Origin: Faecalibacterium prausnitzii
Lineage (GTDB): Bacteria; Bacillota; Clostridia; Oscillospirales; Ruminococcaceae
Direction of reading: 5' to 3'
DNA: 64,000 nt
Assembly (NCBI RefSeq): GCF_003287495.1
Contig: NZ_PRLE01000001.1
Location: forward strand, 124,001-188,000
Shown here: piece by piece, positions 19,501 through 64,000 of the stretch
How positions within the stretch are numbered: position 1 is the stretch's first letter
Layout: each line of letters opens with the position of its first letter
Notes under the pieces: generated by a model
The model's input: the letters and a program-made list of their open reading frames with translations, nothing else
The model's database searches: none
Told to the model about the DNA's origin: nothing
Made by a program: the position numbers and the translations under genes

Positions 19501-20061
19501 GTGGTCCTGTAACTCGATATAATAGTTGCCGACGCCGAACAGCTCCTGATACCACAGAGCCGAAGATTTGGCGCGCTCATAATCGCCCGCCAGAATTGCC
19601 TGCGGGATCTCGCCTGCCAGACAGGCAGAGAGACAGATCAGACCCTCGTGGTACTGCTCCAAGAGCTGTTTGTCCACGCGGGGCTTGGAGTAGAAGCCCT
19701 CGACAAAAGCAGCCGACACCATTTTGCAAAGGTTTTTGTAACCGGTCTCGTTCTTGCAGAGCAAAATCAGATGGTTGTTGCCATCAATTTTATTTACCTT
19801 ATCAAAGCGGGTACGGGTGGCCACATAGACCTCACAACCGATGATGGGCTTGATGCCCGCCTTTTTTGCAGCCTTGTAAAACTGCACACAGCCGTACATA
19901 ACACCGTGGTCGGTGCAGGCAATGGCAGTCTGACCGCACTCTTTTACGCGGTCCATCAACTGGTCAATGCGGCAGGCACCATCCAGCAGACTGTATTCTG
20001 TATGAATATGCAGGTGGACAAAGTCTCTCCCCTGTTTGTTATTCTCGCTCGGTTCCGTCAT
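16540..20061 (-). CDS. dnaE: DNA polymerase III subunit alpha
   Basis: Replicative DNA polymerase of the DnaE1 type, 1173 residues. An N-terminal PHP domain (FVHLHIHTEYSLLDGACRI) precedes the polymerase core, whose catalytic aspartates lie in MPDFDVDFCYERRQEVIDYV and LKMDFLGLRTLTVI. Other signatures are GPGRGSGAGSIAAY, RPGPMDSIPTYLRNRH and YQEQVMQIFRELAGFSFGQAD. A helix-hairpin-helix region and a C-terminal OB-fold (RIVCTIVKNRMMTTKSNTMMAF) follow. The start overlaps the whiA stop by four bases, so it ends the hprK-murB-rapZ-whiA-dnaE unit. Confidence 0.98.
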   Translation of the reverse strand: MTEPSENNKQGRDFVHLHIHTEYSLLDGACRIDQLMDRVKECGQTAIACTDHGVMYGCVQFYKAAKKAGIKPIIGCEVYVATRTRFDKVNKIDGNNHLILLCKNETGYKNLCKMVSAAFVEGFYSKPRVDKQLLEQYHEGLICLSACLAGEIPQAILAGDYERAKSSALWYQELFGVGNYYIELQDHGLEEDNIVLPQLIKLARETGIPMAATNDSHYLRKEDAKMQAILLCIQTGKTMQDADRMEFQTDEFYVKTTDEMYDLFAMVPEACSNTRIIADQCNFEFDFGHTKIPYYKAPGGMDNQDFFEKLCWEGLERRYGPDVPQANKDRLSYEIGVIKTMGYTNYYLIVWDYVNYAKSQGIPVGPGRGSGAGSIAAYSVGITDIDPIRYNLIFERFLNPERVSMPDFDVDFCYERRQEVIDYVNRKYGADHVAQIVTFGTMAARNAIRDVGRVLGMPYQSVDVVAKQVPMELKMTLKRALEVSPELKRMYDTDPQVTELIDTALKVEGMPRHASTHAAGVVITPEPTDYYLPLATNDGLPVTQFNMTEIEEMGLLKMDFLGLRTLTVIRDAELAVQKKDPTFAIAKLDYDDPETYQMLSRGETEGVFQLESSGMKQVLMGLQPQNLEDVIALISLYRPGPMDSIPTYLRNRHEPDKISYKTPQLAHILDVTNGCIVYQEQVMQIFRELAGFSFGQADNVRRAMSKKKHAVMEAEREHFVHGCTDPGNQCPGCVANGISEKVANEIYDEMSSFASYAFNKSHAACYAYVAFQTAYLKCHYPSEFMAALLTSVLDNTDKVIEYSGECARLGIKVLPPDVNVSGGGFTADANGQIRFGLNAVKNVGRNLIEQVVEKRQGKPYTSLYDFCKRMYGNELNRRAVESLIKAGAFDRMGVNRHSLVEAVDGIIKSVESDNKRNLDGQLDLFSVMSGLNAAGSENADSYEIKAFPEYSHTELLQQEKEVSGLYLSGHPLDAYREQSARFASHAIKALTGEDAHVLDNSHVRIVCTIVKNRMMTTKSNTMMAFTSVEDLTGTMEVIVFPRVLDTFRDSIKENAVVVIEGRLSVREDEPAKLMAESILPIEGYDPKHPQANKPNLMRDATQRLYIRLPSRTCPEYAKVINLLEIFDGDMPVIFYLEDTKQKLAAPRRLYTSGHPLFFQELKRVVGACNVATK

Positions 20062-20993
20062 GCTTTCACCTCCTCGGCTTCCTGTTCCAGACGCTGACGC
20101 AGCGTATCGGCCAGCGACTCCAGTTTCTTCATCCGGTGCGAAAGGCCGGATTTGCTGACAGCCGGGTCAAAGCAGGCACAGAGTGCTGTCAATGAAAGAT
20201 CCGGATAGGCCAGCCGTTTGGCGGCGGCATCCTGCAACACCTCCGGCAATGTTTCCAAGGCGTTCTGCTCTTTCAAAAAGCGGATGGCTTTCAGCGTCTG
20301 TGCATTGGCGCGGGCCGTCTTGCTGAGGTTTGCGGTATCGCAGTTGGTGTGGCGGTTGATCTGGTTGCGCACCTGTTTGACCGCTTTTTGCGCTTTGATC
20401 TGTGCTGCCGCATTCGCTGCCCCCATAAAGGCCAGAATGCGCTCCACATTGGCGCTGTTCTTGACATAGATGAGGTTCACACCGTTCCGGCGAGTACGAT
20501 GCGGTGCAAATTCATGCTCCGCCAGCAACGCTTCAAAATCCTTGGCCAGATTGGTGCGGCTGGTCAAAAACTCAATATTATATTCTTTTTGTGGATCTAT
20601 CACCGTTCCACTGCACAAAAAAGCCGACCCGATGTATGCGCTGACACAGGTCTGGCAGCGTATCAGCTCCGGGTCGATCTGCAAGCTCGTTTCTGAGCCA
20701 GTGGTGCCAAAAAGCTCATGCATCCGCGTCACCTGTTCCGGCGCACGGATGCCAAACTCATATACCACCCCGCTGGGGCGGATTTTTTCGGTGATGGTTC
20801 CCTGAACACCGCAGCGGGCAAACAACTGCTCTGCCACCTGTGCGGTCAGGGCCTGCTCGGTCTGCAGCACCAGCCCCTTTGCATCAAAATACTTGGCAAA
20901 GCAGGCAAAGCCATAGGCCGCCGCGCGAACACAGCAATCCTTTTGCAGGCTGCGCCGCGCGATTTCTTCCCGCGCCTGGGACGCAAAACTCAT
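20058..20993 (-). CDS. whiA: WhiA-type DNA-binding protein
   Basis: DNA-binding protein of the WhiA family, which in Gram-positive bacteria is linked to cell division and, in Streptomyces, sporulation. The 311 residues have the LAGLIDADG-like N-terminal half (CCVRAAAYGFACFAKYFD; RRNGVNLIYVKNSANVERILAFMGA) and a C-terminal helix-turn-helix (LTALCACFDPAVSKSGLSHRMKKLESLA). The middle segment NRHTNCDTANLSKTARANAQ is highly conserved in the family. Following rapZ is the standard Firmicute arrangement. Confidence 0.95.
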   Translation of the reverse strand: MSFASQAREEIARRSLQKDCCVRAAAYGFACFAKYFDAKGLVLQTEQALTAQVAEQLFARCGVQGTITEKIRPSGVVYEFGIRAPEQVTRMHELFGTTGSETSLQIDPELIRCQTCVSAYIGSAFLCSGTVIDPQKEYNIEFLTSRTNLAKDFEALLAEHEFAPHRTRRNGVNLIYVKNSANVERILAFMGAANAAAQIKAQKAVKQVRNQINRHTNCDTANLSKTARANAQTLKAIRFLKEQNALETLPEVLQDAAAKRLAYPDLSLTALCACFDPAVSKSGLSHRMKKLESLADTLRQRLEQEAEEVKA

Positions 20994-21916: not shown

Positions 21917-22852
21917 TTATGCCCTTACGACCCGAATCTCTTTTTCAAGGTCATAGCCTGTTTTCTCTTTGACGATGGACCTCACTTCATCACAAAGTGC
22001 CAGTACATCGGCACAAGTTGCGCCGCCCAGGTTGACCACAAAACCGCAGTGCTTTTCGCTGACGGCAGCCCCGCCGTGGCGGTAGCCCCGCAGGCCGCAC
22101 TGGTCGATGAGGGCCGCGGCGAAAGCCCCTGCCGGCCGCTTAAAGGTACTGCCAGCGCTGGGTTTGTCCAACGGCTGTTTGTCGATCCGTTTTTGCATCA
22201 ATTCGTCCATCCTGGCCTTGATGGATGCAGCGTCTCCTTTTTTCAGGCGGAACGTTGCGCTCAGAATGCAGCCGCCGTTCTCCTCAAAAATGCTATGCCG
22301 GTACGATAAATCCAACTCAGCGGCTGGCACTTCGATGATGTTTCCGTCCGCAGCCAAATACTCCACGGACGTCAGAACATCTTTCATCTCGCCGCCGTAA
22401 GCACCTGCATTCATATAGATCGCACCGCCCACCGTGCCGGGAATGCCGTAGGCAAACTCTAAACCGGTGCAGCTGTGGTTCAGTGCAAAATTGCAAAGAG
22501 TCGAAAGCTTCGTCCCGGCCCCGACCGTCACGTTGCAATAAACTACACCGGACTCTTCGCCGGGAATGTTCTCTTTCATCCCAATGCCGGTTTTCATGGC
22601 CGTCAGGTCCAGAACAGCCCCCCGGAAACCTGCATCCTCAAACAGAATGTTGCTGCCGTTCCCCAGCAGATAATAGCGAGCTCCCTGCTCCTTGCAAAAA
22701 GCCACTGCCCTGCACAGCTGGATTTCGTCGCATGGTTTTATAAATATGTCTGCCGGACCACCGATACGGAACGTACAGTGGTCGGCCAACAGCTCGTTTC
22801 GGGTACAAGCAATGCCCGCCGCATCCAGTGCGGCGCACAAAGGTTCAAACAT
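21917..22852 (-). CDS. murB: UDP-N-acetylenolpyruvoylglucosamine reductase
   Basis: Second committed enzyme of peptidoglycan precursor synthesis, an FAD/NADPH-dependent reductase giving UDP-MurNAc. The 311 residues contain the FAD-binding TFRIGGPADIFIKP, YYLLGNGSNILF and AYGIPGTVGGAIYMNAGAYGGEMKDV segments. The substrate-binding end includes GSTFKRPAGAFAAALIDQCGLRG. Length and motifs fit the type IIb enzymes of Gram-positive bacteria. It lies 17 bases upstream of rapZ and 23 downstream of hprK. Confidence 0.96.
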   Translation of the reverse strand: MFEPLCAALDAAGIACTRNELLADHCTFRIGGPADIFIKPCDEIQLCRAVAFCKEQGARYYLLGNGSNILFEDAGFRGAVLDLTAMKTGIGMKENIPGEESGVVYCNVTVGAGTKLSTLCNFALNHSCTGLEFAYGIPGTVGGAIYMNAGAYGGEMKDVLTSVEYLAADGNIIEVPAAELDLSYRHSIFEENGGCILSATFRLKKGDAASIKARMDELMQKRIDKQPLDKPSAGSTFKRPAGAFAAALIDQCGLRGYRHGGAAVSEKHCGFVVNLGGATCADVLALCDEVRSIVKEKTGYDLEKEIRVVRA

Positions 22853-22875: not shown

Positions 22876-23811
22876 TTAATCCAGCGTTTCGTCCAGACCC
22901 AGACGGATCAGCAGCTCCTTGGCGGCATTGTAGCCCATCTTCTTCTGGCGGTTGTTGATGGCTGCCGTTTCCAGCACGACAGCCATATTACGGCCAGGCG
23001 AAACCGGGATGCTGGTACTGGGAATGCTCACACCCAGAATATCACAATACTCGCTTTCGAGGCCGGTACGCTGGTAGTTCTTGGTGGGGTCCCAGGGCTC
23101 CAGCTGCACCACAAGGTCGAGGCTCTCGCTCACTTTAACAGCACCCACACCGAAAATCCGGGCCACATTGACAATGCCAATGCCGCGCAGCTCAATAAAG
23201 TGGCGAATGTTTTCCGGTGCCGTGCCCATGATCTGGCGGTTGGAAACTTTGCGCAGTTCCACGGCGTCATCCGCTATGAGACGATGGCCGCGCTTGACCA
23301 GCTCAATGGCCAGCTCGCTCTTTCCAATGCCGCTGTCACCCAGAATGAGAATGCCCTCGCCGTACACTTCCACCAGCACACCGTGGCGGGTGATGCGGGG
23401 GGCAAGTTCCAGATTCAGCACACTGATGAGGCTTCCCATCAATGTGCAGGTCGTCTCATTGGAGCGCAGCAGCGCCACACCGTGTTTTTTTGCCAGTTCC
23501 AGCATCTCGGGAAACGGCTCCAGTTCTTCACTGCGGCCCACGATAACAGCAGGCGGCTGCTGCCGGAACAGCTGATCCAGACGCTCCCGACGCTTTTCCT
23601 CCGGGAGGCCCGCCAGGAAGTTCATCTCCGCCAAGCCCATGATCTGCAGACGCAGCTTATCAAAATAATCATAGTAACCCGCCAGGAACAGGCCCGGACG
23701 GTTGACCTCTGCAATTTCAACACTGATGTTTTCCAGATCCTGCGGCGTGTAAACCACGTCCATACTGACTTTCTCCGTCAGCTTTTTAAGCGAAACGGTG
23801 AAGTTCCCCAT
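22876..23811 (-). CDS. hprK: HPr kinase/phosphorylase
   Basis: Bifunctional enzyme that phosphorylates and dephosphorylates Ser46 of HPr, the sensor for carbon catabolite control in Firmicutes. The 311 residues contain the P-loop GDSGIGKSELAIELVKRGHRL and the HprK signature ELRGIGIVNVARIFGVGAVK, followed by SIPSTSIPVSPGRNMAVVLETAAINNRQKKMGYNAA. It is the first gene of an operon running to dnaE. A TATAAT on the minus strand lies about 190 bases upstream, leaving a fairly long leader. Confidence 0.97.
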   Translation of the reverse strand: MGNFTVSLKKLTEKVSMDVVYTPQDLENISVEIAEVNRPGLFLAGYYDYFDKLRLQIMGLAEMNFLAGLPEEKRRERLDQLFRQQPPAVIVGRSEELEPFPEMLELAKKHGVALLRSNETTCTLMGSLISVLNLELAPRITRHGVLVEVYGEGILILGDSGIGKSELAIELVKRGHRLIADDAVELRKVSNRQIMGTAPENIRHFIELRGIGIVNVARIFGVGAVKVSESLDLVVQLEPWDPTKNYQRTGLESEYCDILGVSIPSTSIPVSPGRNMAVVLETAAINNRQKKMGYNAAKELLIRLGLDETLD

Positions 23812-50893: not shown

Positions 50894-50900
50894 CTCCCTC

Positions 50901-50955
50901 TTTGCTAAGGGCTCGCCCTTTGGGTGAGCTGGCGAGCGTCAGCGAGACTGAGAGG
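50901..50955 (-). repeat. Palindromic repeat copy B
   Basis: On the minus strand it starts CCTCTCAGTC, has a TCGC-type spacer, then GCTCACCCAAAGGGCGAGC as the second hairpin (with one mismatch) and the conserved end GAGCCCTTAGC. Its 5' part encodes the last residues and the stop codon of the preceding gene (TSQSR, stop). Confidence 0.75.
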
Positions 50956-51601
50956 TCTCCAGCTTCTTCGCAATGGCCTCCACCTGCTCTTTTGCCTTCT
51001 GCAGGATATCCGCCACCTCGGCTTTCAGGTCCTCCGGCAGCTCCACGCCATAGGAGATGCCTTTCAGCACCTCCAGGCTGTTTTCCCGCCTGATCCACTG
51101 CCGCAAAGCGTTGTTGTAGGTGGTCTGCTGGGTGATGGCGCTCTGCTTTGCCGTGTACAGCGTCACGATGTCGGCGGCAGAGTACAGCTTGCACTGCTTT
51201 CCGTCTGCGTGGTAGGGGTAGGCCGTGGCCCCCAGCATCACTGCGTTGAACACGCCGTCGATGTTGGATTGGTCGGGCACCTCCAGTGAGAAATGCTCCT
51301 GCCTGCCGTCGCCAAACAGCACGTCGATGCCGCTCGTAATGGCTGCTTCGCAGGCGTCGGAAGCCGCTTTTAGCTTCTCGGTGCGCATGGTCTCCATCTG
51401 TTCGGCCTCACTGGGCGGCATGGGCACTTCACCGTAGTCGTACACCGTGTAGGTGCTGTTTTCGATGCTGATGCCCCAGTATTTCTCACCTGGGGCCGCA
51501 TTCTGGTTGTGCTCCTCCACCGTCTTGCTGATGGCGTCGTAGGTGGCAAAGTTCTCCCCCTCTTCCACCGGGGCAGTATAACCGGGTTGAATGATCTCCA
51601 T
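50939..51601 (-). CDS. DUF4376-like phage tail-associated protein
   Basis: A 220-residue protein. The central part, MRTEKLKAASDACEAAITSGIDVLFGDGRQEHFSLEVPDQSNIDGVFNAVMLG...YPYHADGKQCKLYSAADIVTLY, resembles the DUF4376 domain of phage tail or tail-assembly proteins. The C-terminal half is helical. The last residues, TSQSR, and the stop are encoded by palindromic repeat copy B, so the original C-terminus may have been replaced. It follows the tail-tip genes. Confidence 0.75.
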   Translation of the reverse strand: MEIIQPGYTAPVEEGENFATYDAISKTVEEHNQNAAPGEKYWGISIENSTYTVYDYGEVPMPPSEAEQMETMRTEKLKAASDACEAAITSGIDVLFGDGRQEHFSLEVPDQSNIDGVFNAVMLGATAYPYHADGKQCKLYSAADIVTLYTAKQSAITQQTTYNNALRQWIRRENSLEVLKGISYGVELPEDLKAEVADILQKAKEQVEAIAKKLETSQSR

Positions 51602-51644: not shown

Positions 51645-51684
51645 ATTCATAGAAACCCAAGCGGTCTGGTGCCGTTAACGGACA

Positions 51685-51734
51685 TGCCAAGGGCTCTCCT
51701 GTCAGGAGAGCTGTCGCCGTAGGCGACTGAGAGG
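51685..51734 (-). repeat. Palindromic repeat copy C (full, 50 bases)
   Basis: Full-length copy with two hairpins: GTCGCC/GGCGAC and GCTCTCC/GGAGAGC. It differs from the in-frame copy at 57465-57514 at only two bases, which pair with each other in the second stem (T-A here, C-G there). Confidence 0.85.
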
Positions 51735-51753
51735 TCCTACCGGAACAGCGCTC

Positions 51754-52347
51754 TTACTCATACACCAGCAGCACCACGCCGCTGGTCAGGGCACTCCCTG
51801 CCCCGGGGTCACTGGTCCGGCTCTGGATGCTGTACCCGCCCACATTCGCTGCCGTGGTGGCGTTCTTGGCAAGATCTGCGCTCTTGGCATTGGTCGCGTT
51901 GGCCGCCGTGTCTGCCGACGCCGCGCTGGCTGCACGTGTGGCGCTGTCCGCCGTTCCCGCTGCCTCCGCTTTGCCCACCACACTTCCGTGGAAACTTCCA
52001 TCTCTCCCAAACCAGCTCTTCACCGCACCGTTCAGTGCAAGAGAAAATCCGCTTGCCGCCCCCAGCAGGTTCCAGATCAGAGTCCCCCGCCCAGCTGCAT
52101 CGGTCTGCAAATACACTTCCGCACCGTCTTCTTCCCCGCTCCACCCGATTTTTCTGGACGTCGCACTTTTTCCAATGGACGGGAATTTCAGCGGCCCGCT
52201 CAGGGTGCCCCCTGTCTTGTCAAACTTCTTTGCCAGCGCGTCCCCCGCCGCTTTGGCGTCCGCTGCCACATTTTCTTTTGTCAGCGTCTGGTCCGTGATC
52301 AGGCTGAACGCTCCCTCACTGCCCACGCTCATTGGCCCAAATGCCAT
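51754..52347 (-). CDS. Phage tail fibre-type protein
   Basis: A 197-residue fibre protein. The N-terminal part (MAFGPMSVGSEGAFSLITDQTLTKENVAADAKAAGDAL) and DKTGGTLSGPLKF are typical of tail-fibre shafts. An alanine-rich stretch (about 130-170, ADSATRAASAASADTAANATNAKSADLAKNATTAANVGGY) leads to a tip module ending TSDPGAGSALTSGVVLLVYE. The same tip occurs in the neighbouring 52430 gene. It follows a GGAGATT site and is probably part of the receptor-contact structure. Confidence 0.82.
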   Translation of the reverse strand: MAFGPMSVGSEGAFSLITDQTLTKENVAADAKAAGDALAKKFDKTGGTLSGPLKFPSIGKSATSRKIGWSGEEDGAEVYLQTDAAGRGTLIWNLLGAASGFSLALNGAVKSWFGRDGSFHGSVVGKAEAAGTADSATRAASAASADTAANATNAKSADLAKNATTAANVGGYSIQSRTSDPGAGSALTSGVVLLVYE

Positions 52348-52370
52348 TTTTAATCTCCTTTCCTCTTAAA

Positions 52371-52410
52371 CTCCCCTTTCAAGGGGAGCTGGCGCAAAGC
52401 GCCTGAGAGG
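52371..52410 (-). repeat. Palindromic repeat copy D
   Basis: Minus strand CCTCTCAG, then hairpin GGCGCTTTGCGCC, then CTCCCCTTGAAAGGGGAG. It lies between two tail-fibre genes, 20 bases after the upstream stop codon and before the downstream ribosome site. Confidence 0.8.
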
Positions 52411-52429
52411 TCTTAACGAAATAGCGCTC

Positions 52430-55923: not shown

Positions 55924-58900
55924 TCACCGCAGCCCTGCCCACTCGTCTGTGGTCTTTTTGGCCTGTTCCTCCTTTTTCTTGGCCTGCTTCACCCACTGCT
56001 CAAAGGTCTTTCTCTCGTACAGCTTGCCGCCGCTGTCGTCTTCCAGTTTCAGCAGCATGGCCTCCATCTGTGCCCTGTCGTGGTCATTGCCTGCCAGGTA
56101 CACCGGTTTCACCAGCTCTGTCACCTTGCTCTTTAAGCTGTCGGCTTCCTTGCCCGCAGTCATCAGGCGGTTGAGTTCGTCCTGTACGTCTTTCACCCGG
56201 CCAGAGTCCAGTGCGTCGGAAAGGTCATCGTACAGCCCGGCCCGGCCGCCTTTCAGTTGGGCGTTGGCTACGTCGGTGATGGCTCCGGTCACCAGGTCGA
56301 TCACCTGCTCCCGCTTGGCTGCATCGGCCTTATCTGTCCGGTCAATGCCCAGCGTCTCGTACAGTCCCAACACCATGTCCCGGGTCAGCTGCTGCCGGGT
56401 GGCATCGTCTCCGGCCACCTGCGCCTTGGCCGCTCTCTGGATGGTGCCGTCGTACTTTTTCATCCGGGTCTTGAGCTGGCTGTAAATGGTTTTGTCGTCC
56501 TTGCCCATGGCTTCCAACTTGGCCCGGGCAGCTGCCGCTTCCTCTGTGTCGCCATTCCGGATGGCGTTATAGAGGCGGTCATACTGGCCGGTGGCACTGG
56601 CAGGCAGCCCGTTCAGGCTGAGCTTTTCCCCTGCTTTCAGCCTCTTGGCATCCTCCCAATACCCCATGATGGCCTGCCGCATTTTCTCGGCATTTCCCAG
56701 CGGCACACCCAGCAGCTCAAAGCCGTACTCGAGTACGTCCATGCCGGCTTTCATCAGTTTCTGGTGGTACTTTTCCAGCTCCACCTCATCCATCTCGCTG
56801 GTGTCCCGTTTCACCAGGGTGATAAACTTCGAGACTGCCGCAAAGGTATCATTCACGGCACTGATGTTGGTGGCGCTCACCACATCGTAATCGGTGCCGT
56901 TCAAAGCATTGCCCACCAGCGTGTACAGCTCAGAACCAAACAGGAAGTTGCCCGCAAAACTCTCCGTGTAGAGGTCCAAAAAGCGCTTGCCCATACTGGC
57001 TGCCGTCACGTCGCCGTTTTCGTCCCGCTCCCGGTCCCAACGGTGGAGCAGGAAGTCCGCGCCAATTTTCATCAGGGCAAACACAGCCGTCTGGGTCAGC
57101 TGGCTGGCCACGGCCCGGTTCAGCTGCTTGCCCGCCCGGTCCAGTTCAGCCTTATTCGCTGCGCTGGCTTCTGCCTTATACCGGGCCCGCTGGGCGTTGT
57201 AGTCGCCCACCGCATCGGCCAGGATGCCGTAGTTCTGGAACCGCTGGGTCGTAAACATGGTCAGCGTCTTTGTGATCTCGTTGTCACTGCGCTGGATGCC
57301 TGCCCGCTGCATGGTGGTGTAGTTAGGCTGTGTCTCCTCAATGACTCTCTGGTACATCTTATTGACCGCATCCCAATAGGCATCATTGCGGTTGACCTTG
57401 GCCGCAGGGCCCGCGCTTTCACGGCCCACAAAATCCTTTGCGTCCTGCTCAGAGTTTCCCGTCCTGCCAAGGGCTCCCCTGTCAGGGGAGCTGTCGCCGT
57501 AGGCGACTGAGAGGTTAAACTCCTCTGCATGGTGCTCCACATATCGCTTTGCGCCCTCCCACAGAGCCGCCACCGTGATCTCGTCCATGCCGTTGATCCA
57601 GCCCGTCAGGATCTTGGGCAGCTTGTCCATGGCATTCTGGGCCAGGCCCTTGTCCACACCAATGGAGGCCAGTTCTCCCACCTGGGAGCCCCGCATCCGG
57701 TAGCGCAGCAGCGCATCCCCGTGCTGGCTGATTTCTGCTTCCACCATCTTCAAACGATTATCGGTCCAGCCTGCTTTGCTCATCAGCTTGTTCATTGGGT
57801 CAATATTTTTGAAGAATGGCACCACCGTTGCCATGGTATCTGCCCCCAGCACTGCGCCTGCCGTGGGCAGAGAGGCTGCCTGTGCAATGGCCACGCCCGG
57901 GTTCAGCGTCAGGATGGCTCCGGCATAGTTGCCCCGCAGCTTGCCCAGCCCCCGGCCAACGCCGTCCATCCGCTTCCGCTGGGTCGATTGCAGGTCGGTG
58001 AGCAGATAGTCGATGTAATCCACGGCCTCCCGGCCCCAGTGCTCTTTGATGATCTTGTTTTTCAGGATGCCAACGCCCTGGGCCGTCTCCACCTCGCTGT
58101 TCAAGATTTTCTGCACGTCCCGGATCGGCGCTGCCAGACCCGCGTAGGCCGCCGTATCCCGCAGGGAGCGCTGCACCACATTGTTGCACTCTTCCAACAG
58201 GATGGGCTGGCTGCTCTTCACACGGTTTTTCAAGAAGCCGCGCCCCTCGATGGTGGCATCCAGCTTCAAGCCCTCGATCTGGGTTGCCAGCTGGGTCTTG
58301 TCCACCGCAATGGGGTAATAGTTCTTTACGGTGGCCCGCTGGTAGCCCAGCAGCTTCATGCTGGTCTCGTTGATGAGATTGGTGGTGTACCGCCCAAAGA
58401 AGTCTTCCATGTCCTTGCACCATGCCCGGTCGTAATCGGTCATAGCCTTTTCGACGGTCTGCACAATGGTGTCCGCCATCGGGGTTCCGTCGGCGTTCAG
58501 CAGGCTGCCCAGCTGCACAGTCTGACCTTTCTGGTAGGCTGCCTCAATGTCTCCCTTGTGGTAGGCTTTTGCGTCCGGCAGGGTCAGGCCGCCTGCCAGC
58601 AGGTGGTTCCGGCTGTCCGCATTTTTCAGGTGCATGTGCAGGCTGCACAGCTGGGCGTGGGTCAGGGGCACCGCGGTGCCCTTGGTGTCTTTCAGTCCCA
58701 CGTCTACCAGCTCCGCGCCTGGGCCCGCAAACTGCTCCATGTTCTTCACGTTGGCTTTGCCCGTCACGTTGTCAAACAGGGCCGTTCCCTCCACCGTGAT
58801 CTGGGTCTGCTTCCGCTGGCCCTCGTTCAGGATGTCCGCCAGCTGCTCCATCTGGCCGTCCTTGGTATAGCCGCCCAGCATCCGGAACACCCGCTTGGCT

Positions 58901-61900
58901 CCCAGCATGTCCAGGTTGTACAGCGTCAGCGCTTTCTGCAGGCGGGGGCTTCCCGGCTCGTTGCCCTTGGCTGCCAGCACCTCGTGGGCCGTTCTCTGGG
59001 CAAAAGCGTCCACTTCCTTGGCCTTTTCCAGGCTCAGGGTCTTGTTGGCCGTCCGGATCACATGCAGCGTGCTGGCCGTGATGGCTTTCAGCATCCGCAT
59101 CTGGTCCACGGTCATGGGCAGGTATACCCGGTTTTCCGTCTCGTTGATCCGCTGCTGCAAACGGTCCTGCAAGGCCCGGGCCTTTTCGCTGTCTGGCAGG
59201 GCCCTGGCCTCGGCCATCTGTTTGTTCAGACGGTCCAGCTGTGCCTGCTTGGTCGCCGTCAGGTCCATTTCCAGTGTGTCGATCAGCTTCATCACACCGC
59301 TCTGCTCCCAGTCCACGCTCACACCACTGGCGCTGCCCTCGGTGCCCTGCGCCATCTTGATGCTGGTGCGCAGGGCTTCCAGACTCTGCACGGCCTTAAA
59401 GTTCATCACAGTCAGGTCGGCCAGCTTTGCCACCTCTGCCGCCTGCACGATGAGACTCTTCTGCACATACTTGCCCGGTGCAGGCCGCAGCACCATCTGG
59501 TTCAGCTGGGCCGCGTTCCGCTGGATGCTCCGCCGGAGCTCGTCTTTCTGGCGTCCCTCCCGGGCTTTCTGCACCCGCTTTTCCGCCAGTGCCTTGGCCA
59601 CGGCAATGTCCTCATCCCGCTGCTGCCGTGCCACCTCAATAGCAATTGCATTCTGCTGGGCCTGTTGCTGCTGCCAGGCTTCTGCCTTGCGCTGGTTCTC
59701 CTGCTCCCATTCCAGGATGTCGTTTTCCTGGAAAATGAGCTGCCGCTCGGCCCGGTCTGCCCGGCGCTGTTCCCCTGCCACCTGCCGGGCCAGCTCCGCA
59801 TTCTCCGCTTTCAGCTGTCGGCGCTCCAGGGCAATGTCGTCCAGCATCTGCCGCCGTTCCTCCCGCATCCGCTGCTTTTCGGCTTTCCATTCCCGGTCGT
59901 AGGTCTCCCGCAGCACTTCCAGCTTCTCGTTCAGGTCCCCGATGTTCGAGATGTCCACACCCAGCATGTCCAGGTTCTGGTCCAGCAGCCTCTCGGCTGC
60001 CCGGTTCTTCTGTTCCTGCCGGGCAAAGGCCTTTGCCTCGTCGCTCTGGGCAGCAGCCTTGCTGTTCTCGTACAGCCTCCGGTTAAACTCCCGGGTCTGC
60101 TCTCTCTGGACCCCTTTCAGGCTCTTGAGCACTTCGGCTGCTCGCTCCTCACTGCCTGCGGCCGCGGCAGCCACTTCCCGGTTGTGTTTCTGGATGCCAT
60201 TGAAGATGGTCTGCACGTCGGTCATCTCATTCAGGTTCATCACCTCGCCCAGCATCCGGCCCGCCAGCTCCACCTTGGCGTCCTCATACTCGGCCACGTC
60301 GGCAAAGCGGCTCATCATCTTGGGCTTGATGGCATCATGCACGTTCATCAGCACTTCCAGCCACTCGGTGCTTTCCATGCTGGCTGCATTCGCCACGCCT
60401 GCATTCTTGGCCGCCGTGCGGAACAGTGCCGCTGCACCGTCTTTCATGCCGCCCACGCTCCGGGTGTCGTTCACGATGCTCTCATACTGTTCCACCGGGT
60501 TGCCATCCCGGTATCCGGCCTCTCGCCGCAGCTGCACCCCGTGGCTCCTGGCGTCTTTCACCGCCGCGCCCCAGGTGCCGTACCGCCGGGCAAGCTCTGC
60601 CTCCGCCTGTCCGCCCTTGGCCACGGTATAGCTCAGGTCATGCAGTTCCGGGTACTGGTCCCACAGCTCTGTGTTGCGGTAGGTCGCATGGTCCAGCACC
60701 TCTCCTGCCAGCACTTCGGCCATGCTCTGGGCCTTTTGCATGTCGGCCCCGTCGGCTTTCAGGTACTCCACCAAAGGCCGCAGCTCCTTGGCAAACTCGC
60801 TGGAATGCAATTTGCCTTTGGCCCCGCTTCCATTGATGATCCGCAGCGCCATCCCCTCCAGGCTGTCGTCCGAGATCCGCACGCCCCGGGTGATTCCAAA
60901 GAAGTCCATCAGGGTCTTGAGGGAGGCGTCCCGCTCTGCAATAGCCCGGCTGGCCTGCCGCTGGGTGTTCTTCCGGGCGTCCTTGTCGGCGCTCTCTGCC
61001 ATCTGGAACCGGACGTTTGGCACCTTGTTCAGCAGCTCTGCCCGCTGGGCCTCGTCTCCGGCCTTGTACTGCTCCACGGCAATGCCGTGCCCTTTCAGGC
61101 TGTCCACCAGCGCCGCGCTGGCATTGTCCGGCAGGATCGCGGCTTTCACTTCTTCAAAGCCCACAGCCCGCTGGGGCTTTGCCTCAAAGTATCCGGTGGG
61201 GATGGCAGCCACGTCCTTGTACAGCTGCCGGATCAGCGCCGCCGTATCCTTGCTGATGCTGTAGCCCTCCTTGGCAAACGCCTTGCCAATGGCTGTGGTA
61301 GTCTGGCTGCCCTGCGCTGCCCGCAGCAGGATGTCGCCCAGGATTTCCCGTTCTTCAAAGCTGTTGCTCGTGTGGGACTCCGTCTCGCTGCGCAGCTTGC
61401 TGAGGATGGTCTCGATTTGGCCGTCTGCCTTTTCCAGCAGGGCTTTATACTCCTCCTCCGGCATCTGCTGCAAGCGTCCTTTGTCTGCCCGCACTTCGTC
61501 CAGGTTCTTATACTCCGCCGTGGCCGTGCTCATCAGGGTATTGGCCGAGAGTCCCCACGCGCCTTTTCCCCGGGCTTCCTCCTGGTTCATGGCTGCCACA
61601 AGGTTTTCCAGGGTGTAGGGGTTGTGCAGCTGGGCAAAACTGCGGCGGCTGCCCTGCTTGGTGTAGGGGTCCTTTCCGTTGTAGATACCCTTTTCTCCCA
61701 GAATCTTCTCCATTTTGGGCAGCAGCCAGGAGGCCACATCGGCGTCCGGTGCCTTTTCCCGCAGCTCCTGCTGCATGGCGTCAGTATCCTGCACCAGCTT
61801 GCCCGCAATTTCTTTGGTCGTTACATACTCGTATGCGTTTTCCAGCCGGGACCGCAGCATGGGCGCGATCAGCCGGGCCGCTTTGGCCTGTGCCTTTTCC

Positions 61901-64000
61901 TCGCTCCATCCCAGCTCTTCCATAGCCCAGGCCGTTTCTGCCTGCCGCACCTCGTCCAGCACCGCGTTGGCCCGGTCATGGTTCCCGCTCACCACGTCCG
62001 TCTCCACGATGTCCCGCAGCACGCTCTCCCCGCCAATAGCCTCCATGATCTTCTCATACCGCTTCTTCTGGCTCTCGGTAAACCGCACCTCCGGCTTTGT
62101 CACCACCTGGATGTCCTCACCCTTGTCAGCCAGATACGCTGCCTTAACGGCATCGTTCTGGGCTAGGCTCCCCGCCAGCTGCTTCGGGCTCTGGCTGGAG
62201 GCCTCCATGTTCAGCGTGCCGGTCAGCACACTGCCCCGGGCAAAGGCCCCCTTGGCGGTCTGGCGGCTCAACTGTGCAAGCTCCGTGTTCAGCTTCATGG
62301 CCTGGTCCGCATTCACCTTATACTCCACACTCGGTCTTGTCGGCGTCCAGGCATCTGAGCCATACACCCGGTTTGCACGGTTGGCCATAGGGTCAATACT
62401 GTCCGGGCCAAACACCAGCGAGATGGGGCCATACTGGCTGTGTCCCTCCTGGGCTTTCACCACCGCAATGGAGGGCGAGGGCATCCCACCCAGATCCAGC
62501 GCTTCCCGCAGGTTTTCCTCGGTCAGGTTGTGCACGGCAACCAGCTCTTTGGTCTCATTTACTTCCACCGGGCTGGCCAGCTGGAACCGGGTAGTTTTCT
62601 TCACAGGTTCATCTGTCCGGGCGTTTTCCACGCTTACGCTCTTGACATTTCCATCGGAATAGCGTAAACTAGCAATGGAACCATACTTGGTTATGCGTAA
62701 CGGCAATTGGAGCCCATTGACAGCTAACCAAGTATTGGTTCTATTTTTATTGGGGTCGATGTAAAGGATTTCATCACGGTTCAAAAGGCCCTGCACATTT
62801 TTCTTTCCATAGGCGCTCGTCACCACAATGTTATCCATTTCCAGCCCGCCCCGGCTTGTCGGCAGCAGCTCCAGCGAAACATCCACAGGCTTCCCGGTCT
62901 GGTCATAGACTTCGCCAAACATATAGATACGGCTGGCATAGTCCGCATTTCGGCTTGTGTCAGAATGGAGCACAACAATAGGGCTTTCCAGAACCTGCGG
63001 CACCTGTTTGATGATTTCTCTTGTCATAATAGAGTCATCAATTCCGGCCCGGAAGTTTTCTGCACTGTGTTTCTGCAAAATTTTCCGGATCTTGCCGCTG
63101 TCCCAGTAAATATTCTGGTCCTTTACGCCAATGCTTTGTAACACTTTTGATGTCGAGCCCACAAGGATTTGCTTTGACCATACTTTTGCATTTACATCCA
63201 GTTCATCAATGGCTTTTTCAAATCCCTTGTCAATTTCAAACCGCGTCCCCAGTTTTTCCGCCGCGTCCTCGGTCTTGAGGGCTGCGGCGTTTTTATTTTC
63301 GGCAGCTTTTGCAGCACGCAGGTTGTCCATGGCCTTTTCGGCATGGGCAAAGTATTCTTCCTGCAATGCCCGCTTCTCGGCTTCTGCCAGGCGCCGGGCC
63401 TTTCGTGCTGCGGTATTCTCCGGGTCAATGCGCAGCACTTCCTTGGCTTTGGAGATGATGTTTTCCAGCATGGTCTTCACCTGCTGCATCACCTTGTGGA
63501 TACTTCCGGCACGGCCTGCGTTCTTGTCCGCCTGCTCCCGCTGGAACTGAGCCCACCGCCGCACACTCTCCTCGCTGTCAAAGATGCCGCCCCAGGCATC
63601 CGCCACCAGCTCTTCCGCTGCCTGCTCATAGGTCAGGCTCTGGGCGGCATAATCGCCCATCTTGGCCCGGATCATCTCGTCTATGGTTTCATAGCCATTC
63701 TTCTGGGCCAGGTACAGCAGCGCATGGTCCTGCAAGGTCTTGGCACCCTCAGCGTCCAGTGCGTTATACCAGTGGTAGTCCTCGTGCAGCACGGTAGAAA
63801 AAACATCCTGCGCACTGTCGCCAAAGAAAATGCGGGCCGTCTCCGTGTCCACATAGGCCCGGACATTCGCATTCGGTGCCCCGTCCGGCCCATTCAGTAC
63901 GCTTTTCAGCACCGCATCAGTGCCCGTACCCTGGGCGTTCAGGCGGATGATCTGGCTGGCCACAGCATCTTCCGGGCGCAGGGTGCCGCGGTAGTAGGTC
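55924..64000 (-). CDS. Giant polyvalent-type phage protein, N-terminus beyond window
   Basis: More than 2,690 codons are open to the window edge, with no frameshift. From the first in-window GTG (63963) the parts are: an HExxH zinc-peptidase motif (LHEDYHWYN, residues 60-64) with EELVAD at 117-122 as a likely third ligand; a region at about 268-445 (QILVGSTSKVLQSIGV; LESPIVVLHSDT) resembling the phage MuF C-terminal/PBECR predicted nuclease; a conserved block at 474-560 (LVAVHNLTEENL; GGMPSPSIAV); a coiled coil at about 1330-1480; and a region at about 1830-2040 (RATVKNYYPIAVDKTQ; LTLNPGVAIAQAASLP) like a large polyvalent-protein-associated domain. Such proteins are thought to be injected with phage DNA. 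Residues about 2150-2166 are encoded by palindromic repeat copy E. Confidence 0.85.
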   Translation of the reverse strand, partial: TYYRGTLRPEDAVASQIIRLNAQGTGTDAVLKSVLNGPDGAPNANVRAYVDTETARIFFGDSAQDVFSTVLHEDYHWYNALDAEGAKTLQDHALLYLAQKNGYETIDEMIRAKMGDYAAQSLTYEQAAEELVADAWGGIFDSEESVRRWAQFQREQADKNAGRAGSIHKVMQQVKTMLENIISKAKEVLRIDPENTAARKARRLAEAEKRALQEEYFAHAEKAMDNLRAAKAAENKNAAALKTEDAAEKLGTRFEIDKGFEKAIDELDVNAKVWSKQILVGSTSKVLQSIGVKDQNIYWDSGKIRKILQKHSAENFRAGIDDSIMTREIIKQVPQVLESPIVVLHSDTSRNADYASRIYMFGEVYDQTGKPVDVSLELLPTSRGGLEMDNIVVTSAYGKKNVQGLLNRDEILYIDPNKNRTNTWLAVNGLQLPLRITKYGSIASLRYSDGNVKSVSVENARTDEPVKKTTRFQLASPVEVNETKELVAVHNLTEENLREALDLGGMPSPSIAVVKAQEGHSQYGPISLVFGPDSIDPMANRANRVYGSDAWTPTRPSVEYKVNADQAMKLNTELAQLSRQTAKGAFARGSVLTGTLNMEASSQSPKQLAGSLAQNDAVKAAYLADKGEDIQVVTKPEVRFTESQKKRYEKIMEAIGGESVLRDIVETDVVSGNHDRANAVLDEVRQAETAWAMEELGWSEEKAQAKAARLIAPMLRSRLENAYEYVTTKEIAGKLVQDTDAMQQELREKAPDADVASWLLPKMEKILGEKGIYNGKDPYTKQGSRRSFAQLHNPYTLENLVAAMNQEEARGKGAWGLSANTLMSTATAEYKNLDEVRADKGRLQQMPEEEYKALLEKADGQIETILSKLRSETESHTSNSFEEREILGDILLRAAQGSQTTTAIGKAFAKEGYSISKDTAALIRQLYKDVAAIPTGYFEAKPQRAVGFEEVKAAILPDNASAALVDSLKGHGIAVEQYKAGDEAQRAELLNKVPNVRFQMAESADKDARKNTQRQASRAIAERDASLKTLMDFFGITRGVRISDDSLEGMALRIINGSGAKGKLHSSEFAKELRPLVEYLKADGADMQKAQSMAEVLAGEVLDHATYRNTELWDQYPELHDLSYTVAKGGQAEAELARRYGTWGAAVKDARSHGVQLRREAGYRDGNPVEQYESIVNDTRSVGGMKDGAAALFRTAAKNAGVANAASMESTEWLEVLMNVHDAIKPKMMSRFADVAEYEDAKVELAGRMLGEVMNLNEMTDVQTIFNGIQKHNREVAAAAAGSEERAAEVLKSLKGVQREQTREFNRRLYENSKAAAQSDEAKAFARQEQKNRAAERLLDQNLDMLGVDISNIGDLNEKLEVLRETYDREWKAEKQRMREERRQMLDDIALERRQLKAENAELARQVAGEQRRADRAERQLIFQENDILEWEQENQRKAEAWQQQQAQQNAIAIEVARQQRDEDIAVAKALAEKRVQKAREGRQKDELRRSIQRNAAQLNQMVLRPAPGKYVQKSLIVQAAEVAKLADLTVMNFKAVQSLEALRTSIKMAQGTEGSASGVSVDWEQSGVMKLIDTLEMDLTATKQAQLDRLNKQMAEARALPDSEKARALQDRLQQRINETENRVYLPMTVDQMRMLKAITASTLHVIRTANKTLSLEKAKEVDAFAQRTAHEVLAAKGNEPGSPRLQKALTLYNLDMLGAKRVFRMLGGYTKDGQMEQLADILNEGQRKQTQITVEGTALFDNVTGKANVKNMEQFAGPGAELVDVGLKDTKGTAVPLTHAQLCSLHMHLKNADSRNHLLAGGLTLPDAKAYHKGDIEAAYQKGQTVQLGSLLNADGTPMADTIVQTVEKAMTDYDRAWCKDMEDFFGRYTTNLINETSMKLLGYQRATVKNYYPIAVDKTQLATQIEGLKLDATIEGRGFLKNRVKSSQPILLEECNNVVQRSLRDTAAYAGLAAPIRDVQKILNSEVETAQGVGILKNKIIKEHWGREAVDYIDYLLTDLQSTQRKRMDGVGRGLGKLRGNYAGAILTLNPGVAIAQAASLPTAGAVLGADTMATVVPFFKNIDPMNKLMSKAGWTDNRLKMVEAEISQHGDALLRYRMRGSQVGELASIGVDKGLAQNAMDKLPKILTGWINGMDEITVAALWEGAKRYVEHHAEEFNLSVAYGDSSPDRGALGRTGNSEQDAKDFVGRESAGPAAKVNRNDAYWDAVNKMYQRVIEETQPNYTTMQRAGIQRSDNEITKTLTMFTTQRFQNYGILADAVGDYNAQRARYKAEASAANKAELDRAGKQLNRAVASQLTQTAVFALMKIGADFLLHRWDRERDENGDVTAASMGKRFLDLYTESFAGNFLFGSELYTLVGNALNGTDYDVVSATNISAVNDTFAAVSKFITLVKRDTSEMDEVELEKYHQKLMKAGMDVLEYGFELLGVPLGNAEKMRQAIMGYWEDAKRLKAGEKLSLNGLPASATGQYDRLYNAIRNGDTEEAAAARAKLEAMGKDDKTIYSQLKTRMKKYDGTIQRAAKAQVAGDDATRQQLTRDMVLGLYETLGIDRTDKADAAKREQVIDLVTGAITDVANAQLKGGRAGLYDDLSDALDSGRVKDVQDELNRLMTAGKEADSLKSKVTELVKPVYLAGNDHDRAQMEAMLLKLEDDSGGKLYERKTFEQWVKQAKKKEEQAKKTTDEWAGLR
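57465..57514 (-). repeat. Palindromic repeat copy E, in frame inside the giant gene
   Basis: The 50-base copy has no stop in the frame used and encodes LSVAYGDSSPDRGALG within the giant protein. Two hairpins are intact: GTCGCC/GGCGAC and GCTCCCC/GGGGAGC. It differs from copy C by one compensatory base pair. Confidence 0.85.

Follow-up and report, generated by a model that had tools for sequence, protein, structure and literature searches.

A two-hairpin palindromic repeat family in Faecalibacterium with copies in frame in prophage and chromosomal genes

A segment in the gene of a giant phage protein of Faecalibacterium prausnitzii derives, with high probability, from a mobile palindromic repeat (REP/MITE-like, with two hairpins per arm), a copy of which was inserted in frame in a variable linker of the protein and is tolerated there. 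The 50-mer at 57465-57514, which lies within this segment, is one arm of a dispersed repeat family with about 120 copies in the Faecalibacterium genome. Members of this family lie in frame in three unrelated genes and in more than one reading frame, relatives of the giant protein without the segment exist, and close phages differ in the presence or absence of copies. The window referred to below is the whole stretch of DNA analysed, 64,000 nucleotides in length; its features and the related copies outside it are collected in Table 1.

Results

The repeat unit and its copies

The initial annotation had described a 50-base element that occurs once inside the giant gene and once between genes. 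The 50-mer is indeed found at 57465-57514 and, with two differences, at 51685-51734 (48/50 bases identical). The two mismatches are both sides of one and the same pair of hairpin 2 (C-G versus T-A). In gene sense, the core consists of CCTCTCA, hairpin 1 (GTCGCC-TAC-GGCGAC), a single A, hairpin 2 (GCTCCCCT-GAC-AGGGGAGC) and CCTTGGCA, that is, of two hairpins within about 50 nt. The RNA fold of the gene-sense strand of the core at 57465-57514 has an energy of -24.8 kcal/mol. An Rfam search of the window gave 0 matches above the gathering score.

Further copies are numerous in the host genome. With a 101-nt stretch as query, blastn found 40 places at E ≤ 0.001, which include the intergenic copy (E 1.2e-17), and a covariance model built from 25 hand-picked copies, which therefore match by construction, gave 140 matches at E ≤ 1. 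At a threshold of at least 26.9 bits 121 copies were kept, and 19 weaker or partial ones were dropped; 110 of the 121 are located outside the prophage, 57 on the plus and 53 on the minus strand. Beyond this genome, matches to the 101-nt query were obtained in 16 of 41 genomes and matches to the covariance model, used with stricter filters, in 17 of 80 genomes of the family, the own genome being included in both counts. Plasmids searched with a 74-nt stretch gave no match. A 161-nt stretch matched 14 phage records, 13 of these in its repeat part, and a strict pattern matched a single stretch of IMG/VR; the repeat in the exact form of the strict pattern is, therefore, not widespread in IMG/VR.

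Many copies are solo arms. Outside the prophage, 29 pairs of neighbours are separated by less than 250 nt; 27 of them are inverted (18 convergent, 9 divergent) and 2 have the same orientation. By eye, the neighbouring pairs are composed of two arm types and have spacer motifs in common, and spacers of 13-14, 44-47 or 86-87 nt separate the partners in 24 of 30 pairs when a wider distance limit is used and the prophage is included. Long BIME-like arrays of arms with conserved spacers (AGCGATACG...CGTATCGCT) were seen at C15:175093-175912 and C15:184353-184774. The window also holds a close group of three minus-strand open frames, each exactly 311 aa long (20058-20993, 21917-22852 and 22876-23811), which are possible paralogues.

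Copies are frequently found directly behind genes. The stop codon of an open frame of at least 100 codons precedes the repeat motif by 0-6 nt in 31 of 119 copies (2 of the 121 had no motif), compared to 56 of 4178 random positions drawn from the same stretches (Fisher p 9e-28), but the random positions fall mostly inside genes and part of this excess is thus avoidance of coding DNA. An internal check among the 66 copies with such a stop within 0-60 nt gave 31 within 0-6 nt, where 7.6 are expected if stops were spread evenly (p 7e-13). In 44 of 119 copies, no such stop is present within 120 nt.

Table 1 Features of the window and related repeat copies elsewhere
Feature	Position	Strand	Remarks
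Giant gene, 3' part	55924..64000	-	3620-aa open frame running past the window to C8:190786
Repeat-derived in-frame segment NLSVAYGDSSPDRGALGRTGNSEQDAKDFVGRESAGPAA, frame a	57400..57516	-	39 codons; copy 4/4 of the giant frame
50-base core	57465..57514	-	CCTCTCAG + hairpin 1 + hairpin 2 + CCTTGGCA, gene sense; R1 75.5 bits
Intergenic core copy (50-mer 51685-51734)	51681..51740	-	Between gene 51754-52347 and the start of 50939-51601; R1 70.9 bits
Degenerate intergenic copy	52360..52416	-	Model match 28 bits
Copy at 3' end of tail-fibre-like gene 50939-51601	50899..50961	-	58.2 bits; holds TSQSR + TGA stop
Nested-module sites past the window	C8:188946-189053, 193071, 195574, 196063, 200780		Prophage copies
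rseP linker of G000			Antisense copy; full-length model match 47.7 bits
rseP linker of G020			Sense, frame a, NPSAADGGSSPDRGALG; full-length model match 60.3 bits
rseP linker of G015			Sense, frame c, QPLSQRSGADGSPDGGA; full-length model match 31.9 bits

The giant phage protein

The minus-strand frame of 3620 codons stays open across the copy at 57465-57514, and the earlier claim that the reading frame around the insert is intact holds. Two other parts of the initial annotation have to be corrected. The gene had been called structural, but the domains of its product are MuF_C and PBECR5 (a nuclease); from these the product is predicted to be a large polyvalent phage protein, and nothing marks it as a part of the virion. 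The insert had been taken to add about 17 residues, but the stretch bounded by the conserved flanks ALWEG..F and YW counts 45 residues in the window protein and 9 or 10 in the eight sequences found to be free of the segment (L054-L060 and G011), a net gain of 35 or 36 residues. The eight include sequences that are not independent: L055 appears almost identical to L059, the record of genome G044. The nearest segment-free relative, L058, has a DNA identity of 90% on one flank (63 nt) and of 93% on the opposite flank (1464 nt). To a 3379-aa frame of G044, which belongs to the same genus, the giant protein is 61% identical over 1716 residues, and the insert is the largest gap in this alignment.

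An intermediate length was found in three viral contigs (L051-L053). They have 26 residues between the flanks and carry an eroded, shorter copy, NLSAASGDSSTNRGA, in the same frame; that of L051 and L053 is matched by the model with 35.8 bits. Beyond the core, the second part of the segment, GNSEQDAKDFVGRESAGPAA, resembles the copies at C8:198040, in a scaffold-like protein, and C8:198702. An AlphaFold model of the insert region was poor, with a mean pLDDT of 36.6 that is too low for use.

The giant frame harbors four copies, at residues 86, 580, 749 and 3091; frame a (NLSV..) and frame c (PLS..) are each used by two of these, and the first three are located past the end of the window. The copy at residue 580 is a weak match (24.2 bits in one search, 17.4 in another) that is not among the 121, because a second module is nested inside it, in frame. 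In the phage record MT836973 (L061), the corresponding linker contains a copy of 54 bits in which the nested module is absent by eye; this record lacks copy 3, and its N-terminal linker contains an eroded copy of its own, a partial match of 27.5 bits that by eye is read in frame a. Scans of viral contigs with two N-terminal segments of the giant protein gave no relatives, yet MT836973 holds one. Around copies 1 and 2 the homologues align poorly and offer no clean empty site, a point against the mobile-repeat reading.

Further coding frames of the prophage

The genes around the giant gene resemble those of a P22-like podovirus prophage (P22_portal, Terminase_6N, Phage_capsid_4). Between the portal and capsid genes, a 484-aa open frame holds one copy; this frame is without a Pfam match and is called scaffold-like from its position only. 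Its insert is common to our prophage and the viral contig L144 (96.8% identical over 1872 nt). L175 and L176 are without it, but much of the surrounding sequence is absent from them as well, and the comparison is not clean. In L144 the capsid gene is joined directly to a fragment of the giant gene, which is not the arrangement of our prophage and points to a rearranged phage or a chimeric assembly. The tail-fibre match of gene 50939-51601, whose final residues (TSQSR) and TGA stop codon fall within another copy, is weak (E 8.3e-6).

Open frames of at least 140 aa that cover a copy with at least 30 residues on each side were judged by eye, and three were taken as coding carriers: the giant protein, the scaffold-like protein and rseP. 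The remaining open frames over copies looked, by eye, spurious or like upstream extensions of genes that start past the copy. In other species 12 frames were read, and only rseP of G020 was accepted, again by eye. Together with the intergenic copies, the four copies of the giant gene, the one of the scaffold-like gene and the repeat-derived rseP linkers of four species bear out the guess of the initial annotation that the family is spread through both intergenic and coding DNA.

Prophage gene junctions

The prophage stretch is rich in copies: 11 of the 121 kept copies lie in 30 kb where 1.24 are expected (Poisson p 9e-8, a value that is too good since the stretch was delimited after the copies had been seen). 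All 11 are on the coding strand, many of them at gene junctions, and further weak or nested copies are present besides. In five copies of the prophage, and in several on the chromosome, hairpin 2 has a second, related palindromic module (e.g. AAAGACTCCCTCCGGCCGGAGGGAGATGGCGCTGCAAGCGACAGAGGGAGG) nested within it.

Three junctions of the phage MT836324 and the two compared of MT838161 have a ribosome-binding site close after the stop codon where, by eye, our prophage has a copy in between; the fourth junction of MT836324 has a spacer of its own and is copy-free (by eye). The model search listed no matches for either of these two phages. MT836159 (L176), a different phage, has family copies of its own at three of the same four junctions, seen by eye and as model matches.

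A close comparison is offered by L251, a relative with an identity of 96.7% on the portal side (1558 nt) and of 89.3% on the terminase side (2866 aligned positions). L251 has an empty junction between terminase and portal, which reads GTGT-GAGGTGCCCA-TGG, compared to GTGT-AACCTC...GAAAT-TGG in our prophage. If the empty state is the older one, the repeat would have changed the stop codon from TGA to TAA and taken the place of about 10 nt. No target duplication was seen at this one clean empty site, where about 10 nt differ, which speaks against the mobile-repeat reading; other sites are too diverged. In addition, one copy of L251 contains a nested module that is absent from ours, and L251 has a full core at a place where ours is 45 nt shorter. 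The differences between L251 and our prophage are the best sign of recent change.

A chromosomal gene with repeat-derived linkers

The product of rseP has a Peptidase_M50 match over residues 8-352 of 369. Of 31 genomes of the genus, 30 were found to have the gene, and parsing of its linker succeeded in 29 of them, G024 being the exception. In 4 of the 29 parsed species, the linker is repeat-derived, and three states of frame and orientation are represented by our genome (G000), G020 and G015. The fourth, DADGSPDGGA in G041, seems to be related to the G015 linker, though eroded, and keeps the frame (partial match of 12.6 bits, E 0.098). The linker of G006 is long, but it is without a model match and was left uncounted. 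Since frames and orientation differ, we infer at least three insertion events in rseP. The linker of G000 is only 2 residues longer than that of several relatives, which is a point against the mobile-repeat reading; as the net gain is so small, part of the old linker must have been lost. In G045, an inverted arm pair (L241 1352-1485) adjoins rseP, outside the portion matched by the RseP query.

Discussion

The mechanism that we favor is as follows. A copy of the repeat would insert into a variable linker of the giant protein with the frame preserved. Copies would move by transposition in trans through some enzyme; a point against this is that the search for a transposase, which covered the Y1 family, linked none to the repeat. 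The same family often adjoins stop codons and gene junctions in the form of single arms or inverted pairs, at times with a second module nested. Copies in coding DNA would survive through tolerance (they are G+C-rich, have few stops and sit in flexible linkers), and not through any usefulness of the peptide. Tolerance best accounts for their survival since the sites are variable linkers and the number of open frames matches that of shuffled sequences: the 90 of the 121 copies that could be cleanly cut out have 3.91 open frames of six per copy, compared to 3.98 ± 0.09 in shuffles of the same dinucleotide composition. This equality lends no support to the notion of an element shaped by evolution for translation in many frames.

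Alternatively, copies could be kept by a role at the RNA level, with hairpins that end transcription or that protect or regulate the polycistronic phage mRNA; coding copies would then be accidents of spread. This is possible, although we consider it rather improbable. It would fit the location of 11/11 kept prophage copies on the coding strand, the many copies that adjoin stop codons, the stable RNA fold and the one compensatory pair between the two window copies. However, copy-free junctions exist in the relatives MT836324, MT838161 and L251, a T run after hairpin 2 is absent from both window copies, and a palindrome would be equally kept by a mechanism at the DNA level.

A second alternative is a classical REP system, in which the arms would be REPs mobilized by a RAYT (Y1 tyrosine transposase) and intragenic copies would be rare by-products. 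The preponderance of inverted pairs, the mosaic arrays and the position of copies after stop codons are what such a system would give, and the foot tag and tail are partly like those of CGTC REPs. Among the 117 of 121 copies that fitted the parsing pattern (4 did not), the foot of hairpin 1 is tagged AGTC in 41, CGTC in 35, AGGC in 35 and otherwise in 6, with only NGNC admitted by the pattern; a CCA tail, directly followed by hairpin 2, is present in 81 of the 117, counted over the listed classes of a pattern that admitted only CCA, ACA, GCA or TCA. On the other hand, GTAG within 6 nt after CCTCTC was found in 0 of 121 copies; GTAG or its complement occurs somewhere within the copy ±10 nt in 18 of 121. 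The search for Y1_Tnp (PF01797), which matched 5 of 14 control genomes, gave 0 matches in our genome, and Y1/RAYT is therefore rejected as the mover here. In the genus, PF01797 occurs in 11 of 31 genomes, but its presence does not track copy number, and the rich carriers G005, G015 and G020 are without it. Altogether, we regard a classical REP system as unlikely.

It is also quite doubtful that the coding segments are useful linkers, selected as flexible, hydrophilic spacers in proteins such as RseP. The same rseP linker was hit repeatedly, in three states of frame and orientation, and the frame is kept in the apparently related linkers of G015 and G041, which speaks for such a role; but the rseP linker is highly variable even in species free of the repeat, and the shuffles described above show that stops are not depleted beyond composition. 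An artefact of assembly or annotation, with mis-joined repeats or a wrong reading frame, is hardly conceivable: repeats commonly cause mis-assembly, our genome is a draft of 19 contigs and L144 is itself rearranged relative to ours, but L144, a separate assembly, has the same scaffold insert, related copies of the giant-gene inserts are found in L051-L053 and L061, and rseP copies occur in other species.

With insertion of a mobile, tolerated repeat as the preferred reading, the family can be compared to known systems. The palindromes of Rickettsia (RPEs; Ogata et al. 2000, 2002, as presented in PMC10969869 and PMC3733652) lie in frame in proteins. Our repeat is like them in being, apparently, a mobile palindrome that occurs between genes and in frame in unrelated protein genes, where it adds tens of residues; this hallmark is seen here in the giant protein, the scaffold-like protein, rseP and the intergenic copies. 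It differs in its host, Faecalibacterium (Firmicutes) plus a prophage with many copies and not Rickettsia or its kin, and in its two-hairpin arms, several reading frames and both orientations; the likeness is one of description, not of sequence. REPs are divided into GTAG and CGTC classes in the text of PMC3733652, according to which CGTC REPs mostly end in CCA and have no known dedicated transposase, and the intragenic CGTC repeats of R. conorii are equated there with RPE-4 and RPE-6. As far as CGTC REPs are described in that text, our repeat partly fits their plan in the foot tag of hairpin 1 and the CCA tail of many copies, and shares with them inverted pairs, a location downstream of genes, intragenic copies and the lack of a known dedicated transposase. 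Unlike them, its unit adds a second hairpin and the CCTTGGCA end, has AGTC and AGGC tags as well and is not a single stem-loop of 20-40 bp. By these comparisons, the Faecalibacterium repeat works like an RPE and partly resembles CGTC-type REPs.

Clusters of REPs are termed BIMEs in the text of PMC3733652. The two arm types in inverted order and the recurring spacer lengths of our pairs are similar by description, but a Y1/RAYT gene is absent from our genome. QMITE1 and QMITE2 of Coxiella, as described in the text of PMC5896051, are small repeats of about 50 copies per family that overlap protein genes, and in this respect they resemble our repeat; QMITE ends carry direct repeats, whereas none were seen at our one clean site. 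The words Firmicutes, Clostridi and Faecalibacterium are absent from the main text of PMC3733652, and a literature search found no publication on such a repeat family in Faecalibacterium.

In the literature, as far as it is covered by these sources, coding palindromic repeats are mainly a matter of Rickettsia and other Proteobacteria; here they are encountered in a human gut commensal genus and its prophage. By all appearances, a short hairpin repeat has landed several times inside genes of Faecalibacterium and the prophage without breaking the frame, and the predicted proteins carry peptides encoded by the repeat. What is added to the known cases are relatives free of the repeat, a nested module that differs between phages, and linkers of a housekeeping gene in three states of frame and orientation. 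Two old questions thereby become testable, namely by what means repeats of this kind move when no transposase is known for them, and whether the proteins gain anything from them. We can conceive, tentatively and with some reserve, that the family is a Firmicutes counterpart of the coding palindromes of Rickettsia which is still moving, and that the temperate phage serves as its amplifier and carrier: copies may load the junctions and linkers of the phage, pass between phages and chromosome, and repeatedly rewrite permissive linkers, such as those of rseP and the giant protein, in any frame that is open.
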